A stretch of DNA of 5,423 bases from Lachnospiraceae bacterium (lineage in GTDB: Bacteria > Bacillota_A > Clostridia > Lachnospirales > Lachnospiraceae), in assembly GCA_017960415.1 (NCBI GenBank), contig JAGCZE010000259.1, forward strand, positions 1 through 5,423. Direction: 5' to 3'. The notes beneath the pieces were generated by a model. That model had not been told where the DNA came from, did not search any database, and saw only the letters and a list, made by a program, of their open reading frames with translations. Every line of letters starts with the position of its first letter. Positions within the stretch are counted from its first letter, which is position 1. The translations under genes and the position numbers were made by a program. Shown one piece after another: positions 2-5,423 of the stretch.

Positions 2-367
2 CGCGATTCCTATGAGAACACCAACGGCTTCTATATCAAATATGCGATGAGAAACGCCATGGATATCGCAACTTTGGGCACTTCGGTCAATGCCCGGTTA
101 TCTGCCGACAAAAAGAGCTTTGACCGCGTCAGGATCGCCTACGGTGTCGCAGGTCCCGTTCCGCTGCGTGCAACAACGGCTGAGAACTTTATTAACGGCA
201 GGGAAGTGACCATGGAGAACATCGAAGCATTTTCGAAAGAAGTCTTAAATGATGTACATGCCCGCGATTCCTGGCGTGCAGCCAAGGATTTCCGTGAACA
301 TATCGCCGTCGAAAGCGCCAAACGCGCACTGATCGAATCCGTAAGAAGATGCGGTGGAGAGATCTAA
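2..367 (+). CDS. xdhB: Xanthine dehydrogenase FAD-binding subunit, C-terminal fragment (5' end outside window)
   Basis: This is the last 121 codons of the FAD subunit of a heterotrimeric molybdenum hydroxylase of the xanthine dehydrogenase type. In the complex this subunit passes electrons from the Fe-S subunit to NAD+ or another acceptor in the cytoplasm. The reading frame is open from base 2, so the first visible ATG (base 47) is internal. The fragment is the CO-dehydrogenase-flavoprotein C-terminal domain: a YIKYAMRNAMDIATLG segment, then AYGVAGPVPLRA, then a SWRAAKDFR motif near the end. All three match my recollection of E. coli XdhB. It ends in tandem TAA stops (365-370). The 2Fe-2S subunit follows 66 bp downstream on the same strand, as in the E. 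coli xdhABC order, so the Mo subunit is probably upstream. Purine specificity is inferred from resemblance; another hydroxylase of the family, such as a nicotinate or selenium-dependent enzyme, is not excluded. Confidence 0.88.
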   Translation, partial: RDSYENTNGFYIKYAMRNAMDIATLGTSVNARLSADKKSFDRVRIAYGVAGPVPLRATTAENFINGREVTMENIEAFSKEVLNDVHARDSWRAAKDFREHIAVESAKRALIESVRRCGGEI

Positions 368-433: not shown

Positions 434-931
434 ATGGCTCAGTATCAACTCATACATTTCACCCTGAATGGCAGACCCGTAGAAAAATACATTGATGTAC
501 GCGCTTCCCTGACCGATGTCCTGCGTAATGATTTTTCGATGACAAGCGTCAAGAAAGGCTGTGAAGTCGGCGAATGCGGTGCCTGCAACGTCCTGATCGA
601 CGGCGAATGCTACAACTCCTGCATTTATCTCGGAGTATGGGCGGACGGCAAAAACATCCGCACTCTTGAAGGACTCCTCGGCCCCGACGGCGAGCTCTCC
701 GACATCCAGCAGGCATTTATGGACGAAACCGCCGTACAATGCGGCTTCTGTACCCCCGGCTTTATCATGACCGCTGTAGAGATCCTCGAAAGCGGAAAGG
801 AATACTCCGAAGAAGAACTGCGCAAACTCCTCTCCGGCCACCTGTGCCGCTGCACCGGCTACGAGAACATCCTGCGTGCCGTAACTAAAGTGATGAAGCA
901 GAGGCTGGAAGGAACCCCGTACACACCGTAA
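434..931 (+). CDS. xdhC: Xanthine dehydrogenase 2Fe-2S iron-sulfur subunit
   Basis: This is a complete 165-residue small subunit of a molybdenum hydroxylase, close to the usual 150-170 residues. It carries the two [2Fe-2S] clusters that relay electrons from the molybdenum centre to the FAD subunit. The N-terminal plant-ferredoxin-like domain has the CxxxxCxxC...C ligand set at C43, C48, C51 and C63 (CEVGECGAC). The C-terminal helical domain has C103 and C106 in QCGFCTPG and C138 and C140 in LCRCTGY, the hallmark of the family. No ligand is missing. The start is fixed by a GGAGG ribosome binding site at 422-426, seven bases before the ATG, and by the N-terminus lining up with E. coli XdhC. It lies 66 bp after the FAD subunit gene and is probably co-transcribed with it. 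The gene order and LSD/LEG-type segments favour a purine-type enzyme over CO dehydrogenase. The exact substrate cannot be read from this subunit. Confidence 0.93.
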   Translation: MAQYQLIHFTLNGRPVEKYIDVRASLTDVLRNDFSMTSVKKGCEVGECGACNVLIDGECYNSCIYLGVWADGKNIRTLEGLLGPDGELSDIQQAFMDETAVQCGFCTPGFIMTAVEILESGKEYSEEELRKLLSGHLCRCTGYENILRAVTKVMKQRLEGTPYTP

Positions 932-943
932 TCAAAGAGATGA

Positions 944-974
944 ATGGCCCGCCGCGTTTTCCGCGGCGGGCCAT
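944..974. terminator. GC-rich hairpin between convergent operons, probable bidirectional terminator
   Basis: A perfect 13-bp inverted repeat (944-956 with 962-974, core GGCCCGCCGCG) flanks a five-base loop, TTTTC. It begins 12 bp after the xdhC stop and ends 17 bp before the stop of the convergent EAL-domain gene, so it is placed to end transcripts from both sides. Neither side has a proper run of T: the + strand continues GTAATTTACG and the - strand continues TCATCTCTTT. It may therefore act as an imperfect intrinsic terminator, need Rho, or mainly protect mRNA 3' ends. The hairpin is directly seen; its function is inferred from position. Confidence 0.72.
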
Positions 975-991
975 GTAATTTACGAAAGCAT

Positions 992-3610
992 CTATTTCTC
1001 CGGCGTATGCAGTGTATACACCGGTTCTTTCAGCCTCTTCAGGTACTCATCTCCCGGCAGCGGCTTATCAAAATAATACCCCTGGATCATATCACAACCA
1101 TTGTCCTTCAGGAAGATCAGCTCTTCGTGTTTCTCGACACCTTCCGCAACGACCTGCATGCCCAGATCGCGGGCCATGCGTATGATACTTCCGATGATCT
1201 TTTTAGTCTTGGCATCCTTTATACCGGCATCGAGGAAGCCCTTATCTATCTTCAGCACATTGAAATCCATCGTCTGAAGCATATTCAGTGACGAATAACC
1301 CGATCCGAAATCATCTATCGAGGTTGAGATACCGTTGGCATGCAGTTCACGAAGTATCTGGGTAAGTCTTTCGGTTTCTCCCGCCGCTGTTGTTTCGGTA
1401 AATTCGATCTCGATCAGCTCATGCGGAATGCCGTATTTATCGATAACATCGACGATCTGGTTGACGATCTCCGGCGAAGCGATGTGCAGCTTCGAAAAAT
1501 TCGAAGAAACCCGGACAGGCTCCAGTCCCGCATTAAGCCATGATCTTAAGTCGCGGCATACCTGGTCCAGCACGTAGAAATCCACATGAACTACATAACC
1601 GTTTTTCTCAAATAACGGGATAAAGCGTCCCGGAGCAATAAACTCACCGGCATGATTCCAGCGTACCAGCGCTTCGGCACCGTGCAGCTTCATGCTGCGC
1701 AGATCTACCTTGGGCTGATAGAAAACAACAAATTCCCTGCTCTTGATGGCATCACTGAAAGCCTTTGTGAGATATGCCGCCTCCACCGAACCGTCCTTCA
1801 TACTCTCGTCATAATAAATACGGCAAGGGCTGTTCCGGTCTTTAGCTGCCCGGTGGGCAATGCCGACCTTTCCGATAACATCGCCGACACTGTCTTCATC
1901 ACTTATCTGATAAACTCCCGCACAGATATTAACGAGGAAATCATTCTCTCTCTGACCGAGGAACGGATGTACCGTTATTCCGTTCAACTTCAGAAGGAAA
2001 TCATCCATTCTGCTCTTCTCGACCAGGGCAAGGAACTCCACATCCCCGTATCGGGCAAGAAGCTCGCCTTTCTCAACCATAGAGGCCGCGATCTGGGCAT
2101 ACTCCTTGATACACTTATCAACTTCATCATATCCGTATCTTGAATACATCAGATCATTATCGATCATCGAAAAACAGGCAACCTCGTATTTCTCGGTCTC
2201 ATGTCTTCTGATGACCTCTGTGATCCTGTCATTAAAACTGTTCAGATTGGGAATTCCGGTAAACATATCCGTCATGTACAATCTGACATTCTCGAATTTC
2301 TCATAATAAGCACAATTCTCCCGACGGTTGAATCCGAGCGCGATCGCACGTGCCATCTCACGGCAGCTGCCGTAACCGCATGCATGGCAGTTTGTGGTAC
2401 GGGTCTCGGGAGCGTACTTATGCATAAACTCGAAGACCTCATTGAGGATCTCTTCGGGCACCTGATACTGCTGGTGAAATCTGTCGGCAAAATCACGCCT
2501 GAAATCATCAGGATCAAGATAAGACAAAAACCTGTCCAACGCCGCTCTCATCTCTTTGATCTCGGATTCATCCCTGACAGCTGCTTTTGTCTTCAGCATC
2601 CTGCTGGTTTCGGTCTGTGACTCGGCGAGAAGCTTTGCCGATCTTTCCCAAAGCCTGACGCTCTCAATAAGATTGTTATCGTCTGCAGGGCCGAGAACAC
2701 AGCCATGTTCGCAGTTCATAGCATCGATAAGGAACGGTCCGTCCTCATCATTTATCAGTTTTTCACAGAACGAACTCACGTATTTATAGTATTTGCGGGC
2801 TCCGGGTATGGAAAGGATAAGCTTTTCGGGCTCGAGGAAATTGGAAACTCCGACTTTTGCATCTCCCGACGCATATAGGAAATTGCTCGGGAAGCAGCAG
2901 TCAAGAGTTATCTCTTCCGGCATTTTTTCATATTCCGAAGGATCTATTCTGGAAAGAAGCTTTTTAACCGTCAGATTGTATGAATATATCTCCTCTGAAG
3001 AAGCATTCTCAAATTCGTCCTTCCGGGCAGGGCAGTTCCCGAGGAACGCCAGTTTGGAAGTATCGCGGAAATGCTTCTTGATATAGATACCCATGCACAT
3101 TACCGATGACTGCACGGGGATAAGGTGCTGAACGCCTTCAAGCGAATGTTTCTCAACATAATTGACAAAAACAGGGCATTCAGATATCGCAAATCCGCCA
3201 TCGCGGTGCAGATCCAGAAAATTCATGATTGCCCATGTAGTAATGGTTCCGCCAAAGCCTCCGTCATATATATTGACCAGACCGCGCTTTTTCAGATAAT
3301 TCAGGATCTTTCCCGCTTTTTCGGAATAACGGAGCATAAACGAAGGAGCAACGACCAGAGATATTTTTTCACCCTTGGAAAGCGCTGACAGAAATTCGTC
3401 GGAATCGTCCGTATAATCACGGGCACTGTGAGGACAGGCTGTTATACAATGTCCGCAGTGGATGCACTTATCCGGATCGACTCTCAGAAAATTGCCGTAA
3501 AGTGCCTTCTCAGCTATGTTGGCTTCCGGAACCGGACAGCCCAATACACAGCTGTTGCAACCGATACAGCTTGACTTTGTGAAAACTAAACCCGTAGTAC
3601 TGTTCTTCAT
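992..3610 (-). CDS. [FeFe]-hydrogenase-like / Fe-S / degenerate GGDEF / EAL fusion, putative redox-responsive c-di-GMP phosphodiesterase
   Basis: This 872-residue cytoplasmic protein has no signal peptide or membrane segment visible. Domains in order: (1) a 2x[4Fe-4S] ferredoxin with C15/C18/C21/C25 and C49/C52/C55/C59. (2) An [FeFe]-hydrogenase large-subunit-like domain, about 80-305, with candidate H-cluster ligands C145 (ISECP), C193 (GNCPARKDE), C300 and C304 (MNCEHGC). (3) A linker and a C-x2-C-x4-C-x16-C Fe-S domain at C408, C411, C416 and C433. (4) A GGDEF domain, about 440-605, whose signature reads GDVEF (522-526), so it is unlikely to make c-di-GMP. (5) An EAL domain, about 612-865, with E646 (EALVRW), N704, E736, E739, D766-D767 (DDFG), K787, E823 and Q843 all present at normal spacing, so it is probably an active phosphodiesterase degrading c-di-GMP. 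The Fe-S modules probably sense redox state, H2 or another gas. It follows the FIST gene by 35 bp in one transcript. The ATG lacks a clear Shine-Dalgarno sequence, but no alternative in-frame start exists before an upstream stop. The exact signal is unknown. Confidence 0.9.
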   Translation of the reverse strand: MKNSTTGLVFTKSSCIGCNSCVLGCPVPEANIAEKALYGNFLRVDPDKCIHCGHCITACPHSARDYTDDSDEFLSALSKGEKISLVVAPSFMLRYSEKAGKILNYLKKRGLVNIYDGGFGGTITTWAIMNFLDLHRDGGFAISECPVFVNYVEKHSLEGVQHLIPVQSSVMCMGIYIKKHFRDTSKLAFLGNCPARKDEFENASSEEIYSYNLTVKKLLSRIDPSEYEKMPEEITLDCCFPSNFLYASGDAKVGVSNFLEPEKLILSIPGARKYYKYVSSFCEKLINDEDGPFLIDAMNCEHGCVLGPADDNNLIESVRLWERSAKLLAESQTETSRMLKTKAAVRDESEIKEMRAALDRFLSYLDPDDFRRDFADRFHQQYQVPEEILNEVFEFMHKYAPETRTTNCHACGYGSCREMARAIALGFNRRENCAYYEKFENVRLYMTDMFTGIPNLNSFNDRITEVIRRHETEKYEVACFSMIDNDLMYSRYGYDEVDKCIKEYAQIAASMVEKGELLARYGDVEFLALVEKSRMDDFLLKLNGITVHPFLGQRENDFLVNICAGVYQISDEDSVGDVIGKVGIAHRAAKDRNSPCRIYYDESMKDGSVEAAYLTKAFSDAIKSREFVVFYQPKVDLRSMKLHGAEALVRWNHAGEFIAPGRFIPLFEKNGYVVHVDFYVLDQVCRDLRSWLNAGLEPVRVSSNFSKLHIASPEIVNQIVDVIDKYGIPHELIEIEFTETTAAGETERLTQILRELHANGISTSIDDFGSGYSSLNMLQTMDFNVLKIDKGFLDAGIKDAKTKKIIGSIIRMARDLGMQVVAEGVEKHEELIFLKDNGCDMIQGYYFDKPLPGDEYLKRLKEPVYTLHTPEK

Positions 3611-3645
3611 AAGTAAATACCCATGCCCCGAAAATATGTTAGTTA

Positions 3646-4758
3646 CTATTCAAATGCTATACCCAATAATGTCTTGTTGATATTGATCCGGTCAAGCTGC
3701 TCTCCGTATCCCGAAATTCCCGCGAACTGCGGTGCGAGAGTTCCGAGTCCTGCGCAGAAGACGCTTGTCCAGTTGATCTCTTTATAGTATTTCGTTAATG
3801 AAATGCAGTTTATATACAGCATAAACCTCGGCTGGGGGATCCTCTGGCGCACAGCCGCGACCATATCGGCAAGGCAGCTGTCATGTTTGCCCCGTTCAAG
3901 CAGGCACAGCCTTGTGCCGCCGTAAACTCCCGCAAGCATCTCAAGTCCCTTATTTCTGGTGATGCCCATGATCTCGGTGGTATAAACAACATCTCCGACC
4001 CTTCTGCCCAGACCGTAGTCAAGCAGATGTTCGTTCAGTTCATACAACTCATAATGCAGGTTCTTGGCCATCTGTACCGCCGCCGGCTTGCCGTCAAGCT
4101 CATGGATTATACGCTTGCGCACATCAACGGAGGTTGCCCGGAATTCAGTTCTCATCGGAACAAACATATCCTGCTTGATCACCTCAACCCTGCCGCATTT
4201 ATTGTGAATAAAGAGAAATACGGATGCCGAGGAATAGACTGTGCCGTTACATGCCACATAAGTGATCCTGTCGTTGGTCTCATTGCCGCAGGAAGAACCC
4301 GCGACATGTATCGGTCTGTCGCCAATGACCGAGGCCAATGTATCGAGCACCAGCTCCTCTGCTCCGAAAAATGCGGTAGTTAATGTCAGGCACACCGTAT
4401 TCTCCTGCTCGACTTCATTCATACTCCTCTCTATTACCGGAGCAAATTCTATCGGATGCATCAGGATCTCTTCGATCACTCCGCCGCTGCATTCAAAACT
4501 GTCGCCGAAAGCAACTATTACAGTTCCGATCCCGTATTCCTCGGTGCATCTACGGCCTTCAAAGAAGGAATAGCTGGTGGTTGCGCCGTATGACGGTACG
4601 TTGGGATATTTCTGCGAAAGCTGTGCGGTAAGCTCCTCAAAAACGGAAGAAGGCGAAAAATACAGGATCGTGCCCGGATTATCGCTAAAATCCGCCGTAG
4701 CTTCATCCACAATAACACTGGGATCTTTTGAATAACTGTGTCCCGTAACCAGATCCAT
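3646..4758 (-). CDS. FIST-domain protein (FIST_N plus FIST_C), stand-alone putative ligand sensor
   Basis: This 370-residue soluble protein consists of FIST_N (about residues 28-215) and FIST_C (about 216-358) and nothing else. The FIST family is a sensory domain proposed to bind small ligands, possibly amino acids, and is often fused to or encoded beside chemoreceptors, histidine kinases and c-di-GMP enzymes. Supporting segments are VPSYGATTSYSF (54-65), the glycine-rich HVAGSSCGNETNDR (151-164) followed by a strand-rich YVACNGTVYSSASVFLFI region, and the C-terminal FAGISGYGEQ with NINKTLLGIAF that closes most FIST_C domains. The start is supported by AGGTGA (4763-4768 on the complement), four bases before the ATG, and by a good promoter 38 bp or more upstream. 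It has no output domain of its own. The next gene supplies an EAL domain, so a FIST-to-EAL signalling pair is the natural inference. The ligand is unknown. Confidence 0.85.
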   Translation of the reverse strand: MDLVTGHSYSKDPSVIVDEATADFSDNPGTILYFSPSSVFEELTAQLSQKYPNVPSYGATTSYSFFEGRRCTEEYGIGTVIVAFGDSFECSGGVIEEILMHPIEFAPVIERSMNEVEQENTVCLTLTTAFFGAEELVLDTLASVIGDRPIHVAGSSCGNETNDRITYVACNGTVYSSASVFLFIHNKCGRVEVIKQDMFVPMRTEFRATSVDVRKRIIHELDGKPAAVQMAKNLHYELYELNEHLLDYGLGRRVGDVVYTTEIMGITRNKGLEMLAGVYGGTRLCLLERGKHDSCLADMVAAVRQRIPQPRFMLYINCISLTKYYKEINWTSVFCAGLGTLAPQFAGISGYGEQLDRININKTLLGIAFE

Positions 4759-4795: not shown

Positions 4796-4824
4796 ATTTT
4801 AACAAATTTATTGGAAATTTTCAA
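4796..4824 (-). promoter_or_regulatory. Predicted sigma-A promoter with extended -10 for the FIST/EAL operon
   Basis: Read on the minus strand: a -35 TTGAAA (4824-4819), a 17-bp spacer, and a -10 TAAAAT (4801-4796) preceded by TGT, forming an extended -10. Both hexamers match consensus at five of six positions. The predicted start is near 4789, giving a leader of about 30 bases that ends in the AGGTGA ribosome binding site of the FIST gene. A second TATAAT (4793-4788) lies just downstream but has no convincing -35. It sits after the rsmA stop, so the signalling genes need not depend on rsmA transcription. Prediction only, in an AT-rich region where chance matches are easier. Confidence 0.6.
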
Positions 4825-4839: not shown

Positions 4840-5423
4840 TTAACTATTTTCGTTATTATTCGCAAAACATTGCGAAAGCTTGGCAAATTGTTCAAGGGAA
4901 AGGGTCTCACCCCTGACATCGGGAGACAGCCCCGCCCGGGCTATCGCTTCGGCCGCCTTCTCCTTCGTGATGCTCAATTCACTGTAATTGCATATGCCGT
5001 TCAAAAGAGTCTTGCGTCTCTGATTGAACGAAGCCCTGATAAGTGCGAAAAGGAATTTTTCATCATCTACACGTACCGGAGGTTCATCATAGAGCTTCAT
5101 CCTGATAACAGCGGAATCCACCTTGGGTCTGGGCATAAAGCAGTTGACGGGAACATTGGCAGCTATGTACGGTTCCGAATAATACTGCACGGCCAGCGAC
5201 AGCGCCCCGTAATCACTGCTCCCGGGCCTTGCCTGCATCCTTGCGGCAACCTCTTTCTGAACCATTACAGTAATACTTTCAACAGGGAGTTTTTTCTCCA
5301 GAAGTGCCATAACGATGGGCGTAGTAATGTAATAAGGCAGATTGGCCACGACCTTTACGGGTTTTCCGCCGTTTTCCGAATCTATCAGTGCTTTTAAGTC
5401 CAGCTTCATCACATCATCATTGA
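4840..5423 (-). CDS. rsmA: 16S rRNA (adenine1518/1519-N6)-dimethyltransferase RsmA/KsgA, C-terminal part (5' end outside window)
   Basis: RsmA dimethylates two adjacent adenines in the 3' terminal helix 45 of 16S rRNA late in 30S assembly, using S-adenosylmethionine. About 193 codons are visible and the frame stays open through the window edge; the GTG at 5412 is internal, since the upstream codons read N-D-D and fit the family's NDDVMKLDL-type strand. Seen from there on: the catalytic motif NLPYYITTP (codons from 5343), VQKEVAARM, YGALSLAVQYY, the FMPRPKVDSAVIR segment, ASFNQRRKTLLN, and a small helical C-terminal domain ending near ETLSLEQFAKLS. The SAM-binding glycine motif and about 90 N-terminal residues are missing only because of the window edge. 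The stop is 81 bp before the FIST start. No terminator hairpin is evident after it, so some read-through into the FIST operon is possible. Confidence 0.95.
   Translation of the reverse strand, partial: NDDVMKLDLKALIDSENGGKPVKVVANLPYYITTPIVMALLEKKLPVESITVMVQKEVAARMQARPGSSDYGALSLAVQYYSEPYIAANVPVNCFMPRPKVDSAVIRMKLYDEPPVRVDDEKFLFALIRASFNQRRKTLLNGICNYSELSITKEKAAEAIARAGLSPDVRGETLSLEQFAKLSQCFANNNENS

Follow-up and report, generated by a model that had tools for sequence, protein, structure and literature searches.

A hydrogenase-type iron-sulfur sensor joined to a likely c-di-GMP phosphodiesterase in a Lachnospiraceae bacterium

What does an iron-sulfur (Fe-S) module of the hydrogenase type sense when it is joined to an enzyme that breaks down cyclic diguanosine monophosphate (c-di-GMP)? 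The question is raised by a window of 5423 bases (the whole stretch of DNA analyzed here) from a Lachnospiraceae bacterium, contig JAGCZE010000259.1 of assembly GCA_017960415.1, in which one gene encodes a protein of 872 amino acids. Its domain order is two ferredoxin clusters, an H-domain, a C-x2-C-x4-C-x16-C site, GGDEF and EAL. An initial annotation had described up to four Fe-S sites, GGDEF and EAL in this single chain, and the domain search bears this out. We read the protein, at a probability of about 0.5, as a cytosolic c-di-GMP phosphodiesterase that is redox-gated by an Fe-S module of the [FeFe]-hydrogenase fold. The sensor-EAL architecture itself is real, conserved and recurrent. The parts of the protein lie in the window as follows.

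992..3610, minus strand: sensor-phosphodiesterase gene, 872 amino acids (open reading frame and Pfam matches; fusion kept in relatives)
3413..3586, minus strand: two ferredoxin [4Fe-4S] sites, residues 9-66 (C15, 18, 21, 25; C49, 52, 55, 59), Fer4_10
2687..3361, minus strand: H-domain, residues 84-308, PF02906, 69.1 bits
3173..3184, minus strand: L1 motif S-E-C-P, residues 143-146; cubane cysteine C145 kept, Glu144 at the position of C299 (CpI)
3020..3037, minus strand: L2 motif N-C-P-A-R-K, residues 192-197; cubane cysteine C193 kept, Arg196 at the position of K358 (CpI)
2699..2725, minus strand: L3 motif D-A-M-N-C-E-H-G-C, residues 296-304; C300 and C304 kept, Met298 at the position of M497
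2309..2395, minus strand: cluster site C-x2-C-x4-C-x16-C, PF04060, residues 406-434, after the H-domain and before the output
1835..2272, minus strand: degenerate GGDEF domain, residues 447-592
2033..2047, minus strand: GDVEF instead of GG(D/E)EF, residues 522-526
1061..1762, minus strand: EAL phosphodiesterase domain, residues 617-850, 225.5 bits

The sensor half has the layout of a sensory [FeFe]-hydrogenase. Groups C and D of these enzymes carry two N-terminal [4Fe-4S] motifs, an H-domain and a C-terminal C-x2-C-x4-C-x16-C site, according to the available text of PMC8163306. The window protein fits this layout in its ferredoxin motifs, its H-domain, which matches the [FeFe]-hydrogenase fold, and its C-terminal four-cysteine spacing, so that the HydS-like front half of the initial annotation stands. 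It also has the substitutions expected in these groups, replacement of C299 together with M353, M497 or both: E144 takes the first position and G191, directly before the L2 motif, the second, and M298 is kept. A search with residues 1-440, in which only the 7997 candidates with the most words in common were scored, produced 43 rows, one of them the protein of the window itself. All four ligands of the H-cluster cubane (C145, C193, C300 and C304) are cysteines in 43/43 rows, as are the four of the C-terminal site; the ferredoxin-site cysteines are present in 43/43 rows at seven positions and in 42/43 at C52. Over residues 396-440, identity to L001, a protein from a Lachnospiraceae metagenome-assembled genome (MAG), is 93%, compared with 82% overall. 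Pfam found no PAS domain in the window protein. An Fe-S input is likely.

The output half points to breakdown of c-di-GMP. Nine EAL positions, E646, N704, E736, E739, D766, D767, K787, E823 and Q843, which we take to be catalytic, are identical in all 31 EAL-type rows, and an exact GG(D/E)EF motif occurs in none of the 31. Because of these two observations, the output is likely to be hydrolysis of c-di-GMP by the EAL domain, as the initial annotation proposed. The structure of the output matches MorA and PA0575. An active bifunctional cyclase/phosphodiesterase was ruled out by GDVEF, and cyclase activity is not expected. The degenerate GGDEF motif had gone unmentioned in the initial annotation.

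The fusion is found well beyond this contig. With the additions from a profile search, 77 proteins were compared, which our own profiles divided into 48 with the sensor and 29 EAL proteins without it; the latter are left out of all member counts. The outputs of the 48 are EAL (18), methyl-accepting chemotaxis protein (MCP; 19), histidine kinase (4), SpoIIE (1), and other or none recognized (6). The best 80 of 557 confirmed GTDB loci, to which all locus counts below refer, comprise 66 MCP-type, 13 EAL-type and one kinase-type locus (67 non-EAL loci). In 150 genomes drawn from the family of G001, the nearest genome, a sensor with any output is present in 32 (E up to 1e-40). The initial annotation could not say how widespread the architecture is. 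There are at most 30 distinct EAL-type proteins (31 rows, since L001 and P0002 are one gene), and they belong to anaerobic gut lineages, in keeping with the anaerobic setting that it assumed. A frameshift or misassembly joining two genes, the artefact that it named as a danger, is ruled out because the full-length fusion recurs in about 30 relatives. Comparison with L001 indicates purifying selection on the gene, with 0.104 nonsynonymous substitutions per site (dN) and about 2 synonymous ones (saturated); dN is lowest in the EAL and Fe-S parts.

In a tree of 73 rows, drawn with a midpoint root and without TmHydS or TamHydS sequences, the EAL label requires three changes. Most simply, the sensor-EAL fusion appears to have arisen at least twice. 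The main EAL clade, supported at 99/99, comprises 21 rows, among them members of Lachnospiraceae, Oscillospiraceae and Treponema; the four EAL-type proteins P0044-P0047, which came to light later, are absent from the tree and from this count. A second group unites five Lachnospiraceae rows (L031, L042, L069, L072 and L077) with one kinase-type row, and these five would most simply represent a separate origin. L069 and L077 have a near-canonical GGDEY.

Several relatives vary the design. In protein P0066 (793 amino acids), this sensor module is accompanied by a precomputed PF00211 match (adenylate/guanylate cyclase), a possible further output type. At two loci, L044 and L026, a GGDEF-EAL gene comes directly after an MCP-type sensor gene on the same strand, possibly a two-gene version of the fusion. 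An extra C-terminal stretch is present in the EAL-type proteins L070 (1151 amino acids), L071 (1001 amino acids), P0010, P0022 and P0024, and Pfam finds PAS_3 in P0022 and, weakly, in P0010.

A mechanism for the redox-gated phosphodiesterase can be proposed. Electrons from ferredoxin-like donors would enter the two N-terminal clusters, which would determine the state of the H-domain cubane, in redox or in occupancy. A conformational change would then pass from the C-terminal four-cysteine domain through a helix and the motif-less GGDEF domain, acting as a relay, to a putative EAL dimer, where hydrolysis of c-di-GMP would be raised or lowered. A complete H-cluster, and hence H2, would not be needed for the evolutionary retention of this design. 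A FIST-domain protein encoded by the same putative operon would probably be a second sensor or regulator of the phosphodiesterase. The domains, the complete sets of cluster ligands and EAL residues, the loss of the GGDEF motif and the gene pair can be read from the sequence; location in the cytosol, loading of the clusters, the signal and the direction in which it acts, dimerization and contact with the FIST protein are inferences. As a narrower and more tentative proposal, to which we give a little less than even odds, the H-domain of the sensor-EAL clade may rely on the [4Fe-4S] cubane and nothing else, with no need for HydE, HydF or HydG, and act with the FIST partner as a redox gauge of c-di-GMP breakdown.

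The maturation genes of the H-cluster bear directly on these proposals. HydF and HydG were examined in the genomes of 50 of the 80 loci, namely 13 EAL-type, one kinase-type and 36 of the 66 MCP-type, the last picked for longer contigs or for isolates, and HydE in 24 of the 50. Presence means a score over the curated cut-off on contigs of at least 3,000 bases, in genomes of unreported completeness. HydG is present in 17/50 sensor genomes and HydF in 20/50; 17 have both, three have HydF only and 30 have neither. The genomes with neither include records not labelled as MAGs (P6A3, 28-4 and Treponema bryantii B25). HydE is over the cut-off in 9/24 genomes and in 0/14 of those among the 24 that lack HydF and HydG. 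Among the 13 EAL-type genomes, six have HydF and HydG, one has HydF (with HydE) without HydG, and six have neither. One EAL-type genome (G014) yielded no PF02906 protein (E up to 1e-8) other than its EAL sensor, and none of HydE, HydF and HydG is over the cut-off there. Roseburia hominis An869 (G007) is ambiguous, with HydF over the cut-off and HydG and HydE not. HydG occurs in 18/32 sensor-positive and 56/118 sensor-negative genomes of the family sample (Fisher p 0.43). Since this sample has no association between sensor and HydG, keeping the sensor is not visibly dependent on HydG. No statement on maturases was found in the available part of PMC8919644.

A second line of evidence comes from position 358. 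K358 of CpI is, we assume, the residue that holds the distal cyanide of the [2Fe] unit, and the window protein has Arg196 there. The P and S of its A-P-S stretch (residues 88-90) and S168, which we take to be among the residues holding the [2Fe] unit, are kept. Thirty distinct EAL-type rows have 15 Lys, nine Arg and six other residues at this position. Within the main EAL clade, the 21 rows in the tree have eight Lys, eight Arg (the window included), two Ser, one Tyr, one Gln and one Asn, so that 13/21 are not Lys, compared with 0/66 MCP-type loci (p 2e-10); P0044-P0047 have R, Q, K and K. The available part of one review describes the mutation to Asn of a residue near the distal cyanide, named there as arginine, which gave an enzyme without [2Fe] signals (PMC11376134). 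The T. bryantii protein L070 has Asn at position 358, and its genome lacks HydE, HydF and HydG over the cut-off. The residue mutated in that work is presumably K358, although the review writes arginine.

These data must be weighed against the view that the protein is a true H2 sensor, with a complete H-cluster assembled by HydE, HydF and HydG, in which binding or oxidation of H2 alters EAL activity and converts local H2 into a c-di-GMP signal. We regard this as rather unlikely. It would have to account for the 30 of 50 sensor genomes that lack both HydG and HydF, for the missing association with HydG, for a position 358 occupied by Arg in the window protein and, in six relatives, by N, S, Q or Y, and for the Asn of T. 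bryantii. Other observations speak in its favor or against a redox gauge that dispenses with the [2Fe] unit. The cubane cysteines and the hydrogenase fold are intact, and the characterized enzymes of groups C and D, which are active, usually have C299, M353 and M497 replaced, as far as the available parts of PMC8163306 and PMC10055695 go. Lys358 is kept in 66/66 MCP-type loci, with or without maturases, and in 5/5 rows of the second EAL group, and Arg196 could itself contact a cyanide ligand. G001, whose sensor is 76% identical, encodes HydF and, as partial matches, HydE and HydG; H-clusters in its sensors are therefore possible. Three PF02906 proteins were detected in this genome at E up to 1e-8, one sensor joined to EAL, one joined to an MCP domain and one HydS-like protein that stands alone; all are of sensory type, so the maturases may serve them. 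The genomes and rows compared are related, and the Fisher values thus overstate their independence. Group A or B hydrogenases are over the cut-off in 28/30 genomes without HydF and HydG, compared with 13/17 with both (p 0.17) and 3/3 with HydF only. Because these hydrogenases persist, the absence of maturases is not clean proof that an H-cluster is absent, and it may reflect an unrecognized maturation route. Among 14 control genes fetched from the maturase-less genomes, of which L102 was left out, TSCC is kept in 12/13 readable hydrogenases. L105 reads TSCS, which also occurs in two of six control hydrogenases from maturase-bearing genomes. Two readings are compatible with the data: these lineages mature the H-cluster in some unrecognized manner, or their H-domain proteins function in the absence of [2Fe]. 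Two further points trouble the redox-gated phosphodiesterase: no biochemistry for the sensor-EAL clade was found in the literature searched, and a simple redox relay through the C-terminal cluster is doubtful because the corresponding cluster of TamHydS was not reduced by 1 atm H2 (available part of PMC13104023). On balance, among the inputs named in the initial annotation (H2, redox or iron status), H2 loses ground from the maturase counts, the missing HydG association and Arg at position 358, yet G001 with its three maturases speaks for it. H2 as the general signal of the sensor family is not supported and remains unproven, and an H2 signal is improbable in Treponema members without maturases and without Lys358.

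The other alternatives involve the neighboring gene, which the initial annotation had not mentioned, or the clusters themselves. The relevant features are these.

3646..4758, minus strand: FIST-domain gene, 370 amino acids (PF08495 match)
4796..4824, minus strand: promoter-like site TTGAAA-17-TAAAAT, 5' of the FIST gene (consensus match only)
944..974, minus strand: terminator-like hairpin of 13 pairs, 11 of them G-C, directly 3' of the EAL gene (consensus match only)

The FIST gene and the 872-amino-acid gene lie on the minus strand with a gap of 35 bases. This gap, the promoter-like site before the FIST gene and the hairpin after the sensor gene make a two-gene operon likely; the region has six promoter-like sites against 6.0 expected from shuffles, and six terminator-like hairpins against 3.6 expected. 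A FIST gene is directly upstream in the window and in 5/13 EAL-type loci (L001, L025, L053, L070 and L071), and none was found in the 67 non-EAL loci, 57 of which have more than 1.2 kb upstream (p 5e-5). Among EAL-type loci with more than 1.2 kb upstream, the fraction is 5/11. In the paired loci, which belong to Bacillota and Spirochaetota, the two genes overlap by up to 14 bases or lie up to 74 bases apart, taking the starts given by the open reading frame finder. The FIST protein passes PF08495 (83.4 bits, cut-off 23.2) and stays below the cut-off for FIST_C (23.9 bits, cut-off 28.5). Identification as a clear NosP was ruled out, its NosP score of 102.4 bits being far under the cut-off of 450. 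A search by sequence gave no solved relative, only one match with E 0.22 and an unrelated name.

This pairing raises the idea that a ligand of the FIST protein, heme or nitric oxide as for CdpA and NosP, is the main signal, with the EAL domain regulated in trans and the Fe-S half serving as scaffold or secondary input. The restriction of the pairing to EAL-type loci across two phyla agrees with this idea, as does the link of FIST proteins to c-di-GMP enzymes elsewhere, which they regulate or to which they are fused, NosP and CdpA being examples (available part of PMC8846402). We nevertheless consider it improbable, since 8/13 EAL-type loci have no FIST gene (L031 and L077 with less than 1.2 kb upstream), the NosP score is low, and the sensor cluster cysteines are strictly kept. 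Moreover, not one histidine position is shared by all six FIST proteins compared, so a heme ligand is not evident. Less probable still, and in our view a slim chance, is a sensor of iron status or oxidative damage, in which loss of a labile cluster rather than its redox state would switch the phosphodiesterase. Four cluster sites in one chain and retention of the gene independently of HydG would suit such a sensor.

Compared with known systems, the protein combines familiar parts in a way that appears new. In the available text of PMC5037454, the HydDB [FeFe] classes C1 (kinase-linked), C2 (chemotactic) and C3 (phosphatase-linked) are all putative, no phosphodiesterase-linked [FeFe] class is listed, and [NiFe] group 2c is diguanylate cyclase-linked. 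These classes agree with the modular signaling outputs that the initial annotation ascribed to sensory hydrogenases. The window protein falls outside C1, C2 and C3 by its EAL output; MCP, kinase and SpoIIE outputs are found among its relatives. Like HydDB group C and TmHydS, it joins two ferredoxin sites, an H-domain and the C-x2-C-x4-C-x16-C site to a signaling output and has C299 replaced; Gly at the M353 position is shared with TmHydS. It differs from them in its EAL output, the lack of a detected PAS domain and Arg at position 358. TamHydS (group D, M2e) resembles it in an Fe-S layout without PAS, but no PAS or output is described for TamHydS in the available text. The group D pair Ser353 and Leu497 occurs in many relatives, whereas the window protein has Gly and Met. 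The putative [NiFe] group 2c likewise has a hydrogenase-type input proposed to control c-di-GMP; as far as the available account goes, that group unites an [NiFe] input with synthesis, while the window protein unites an [FeFe]-type input with breakdown.

Metal-cofactor inputs fused to c-di-GMP phosphodiesterases are known from DosP/PdeO and Bhr-HD-GYP, and the GGDEF-EAL output of DosP is matched by that of the window protein. Their inputs are, in the accounts available, a heme-PAS domain and hemerythrin, respectively, unlike its Fe-S module. NosP and CdpA couple a FIST domain to EAL control as well, but NosP works through a kinase and CdpA is listed as a phosphodiesterase itself in the available text, whereas the FIST domain of the window belongs to a separate neighboring gene. 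A census of c-di-GMP sensors from 2022 (PMC8846402) uses none of the terms iron-sulfur, Fe-S and hydrogenase in its main text, and the available part of a 2022 review of hemerythrin sensors knows no hemerythrin phosphodiesterase with an EAL domain (PMC9388753). No [FeFe]-hydrogenase-EAL fusion or [4Fe-4S] c-di-GMP phosphodiesterase is described among the matches listed by our literature search, which is weak evidence of absence because most subscription papers lie outside it. The sensor-EAL fusion would extend the outputs of [FeFe] sensors to c-di-GMP breakdown and provide an Fe-S-gated c-di-GMP enzyme. It also makes testable whether proteins like those of groups C and D sense H2, with members in maturase-less genomes, such as that of T. 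bryantii, as natural tests. The answer affects proposals of H2 sensing in rumen and gut studies (available parts of PMC6776011 and PMC12578642). If the H-domain holds the cubane alone, many "sensory H2 hydrogenases" of rumen and gut surveys would not sense H2.

The remaining genes of the window frame the pair.

4840-5421, minus strand: end of rsmA/ksgA
2-367, plus strand: end of xdhB, cut at the window edge, convergent with the 872-amino-acid gene
434-931, plus strand: xdhC, over the NCBIfam cut-off, convergent with the 872-amino-acid gene

Read along the minus strand, the end of rsmA/ksgA is followed by the FIST gene and then by the sensor gene. The L001 locus shares the order RsmA, FIST, sensor and xanthine dehydrogenase-type genes, its RsmA and xanthine dehydrogenase having been identified by eye from position and N-terminal sequence. 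Other genomes in the set add minor observations. The stand-alone HydS-like proteins L115 (G001) and L117 (G002), both from Lachnospiraceae genomes, have two ferredoxin sites, the H-domain, the four-cysteine site and no recognized output, with the motifs STACP and SPCPAK. Maturase-less genomes with group A or B [FeFe]-hydrogenase genes include G005, G006 and G008; the control genes fetched from genomes of this kind are L095-L108. In L025, the FIST and sensor-EAL genes are directly preceded by another GGDEF-bearing gene (1916-3832), and the three form a possible c-di-GMP cluster.

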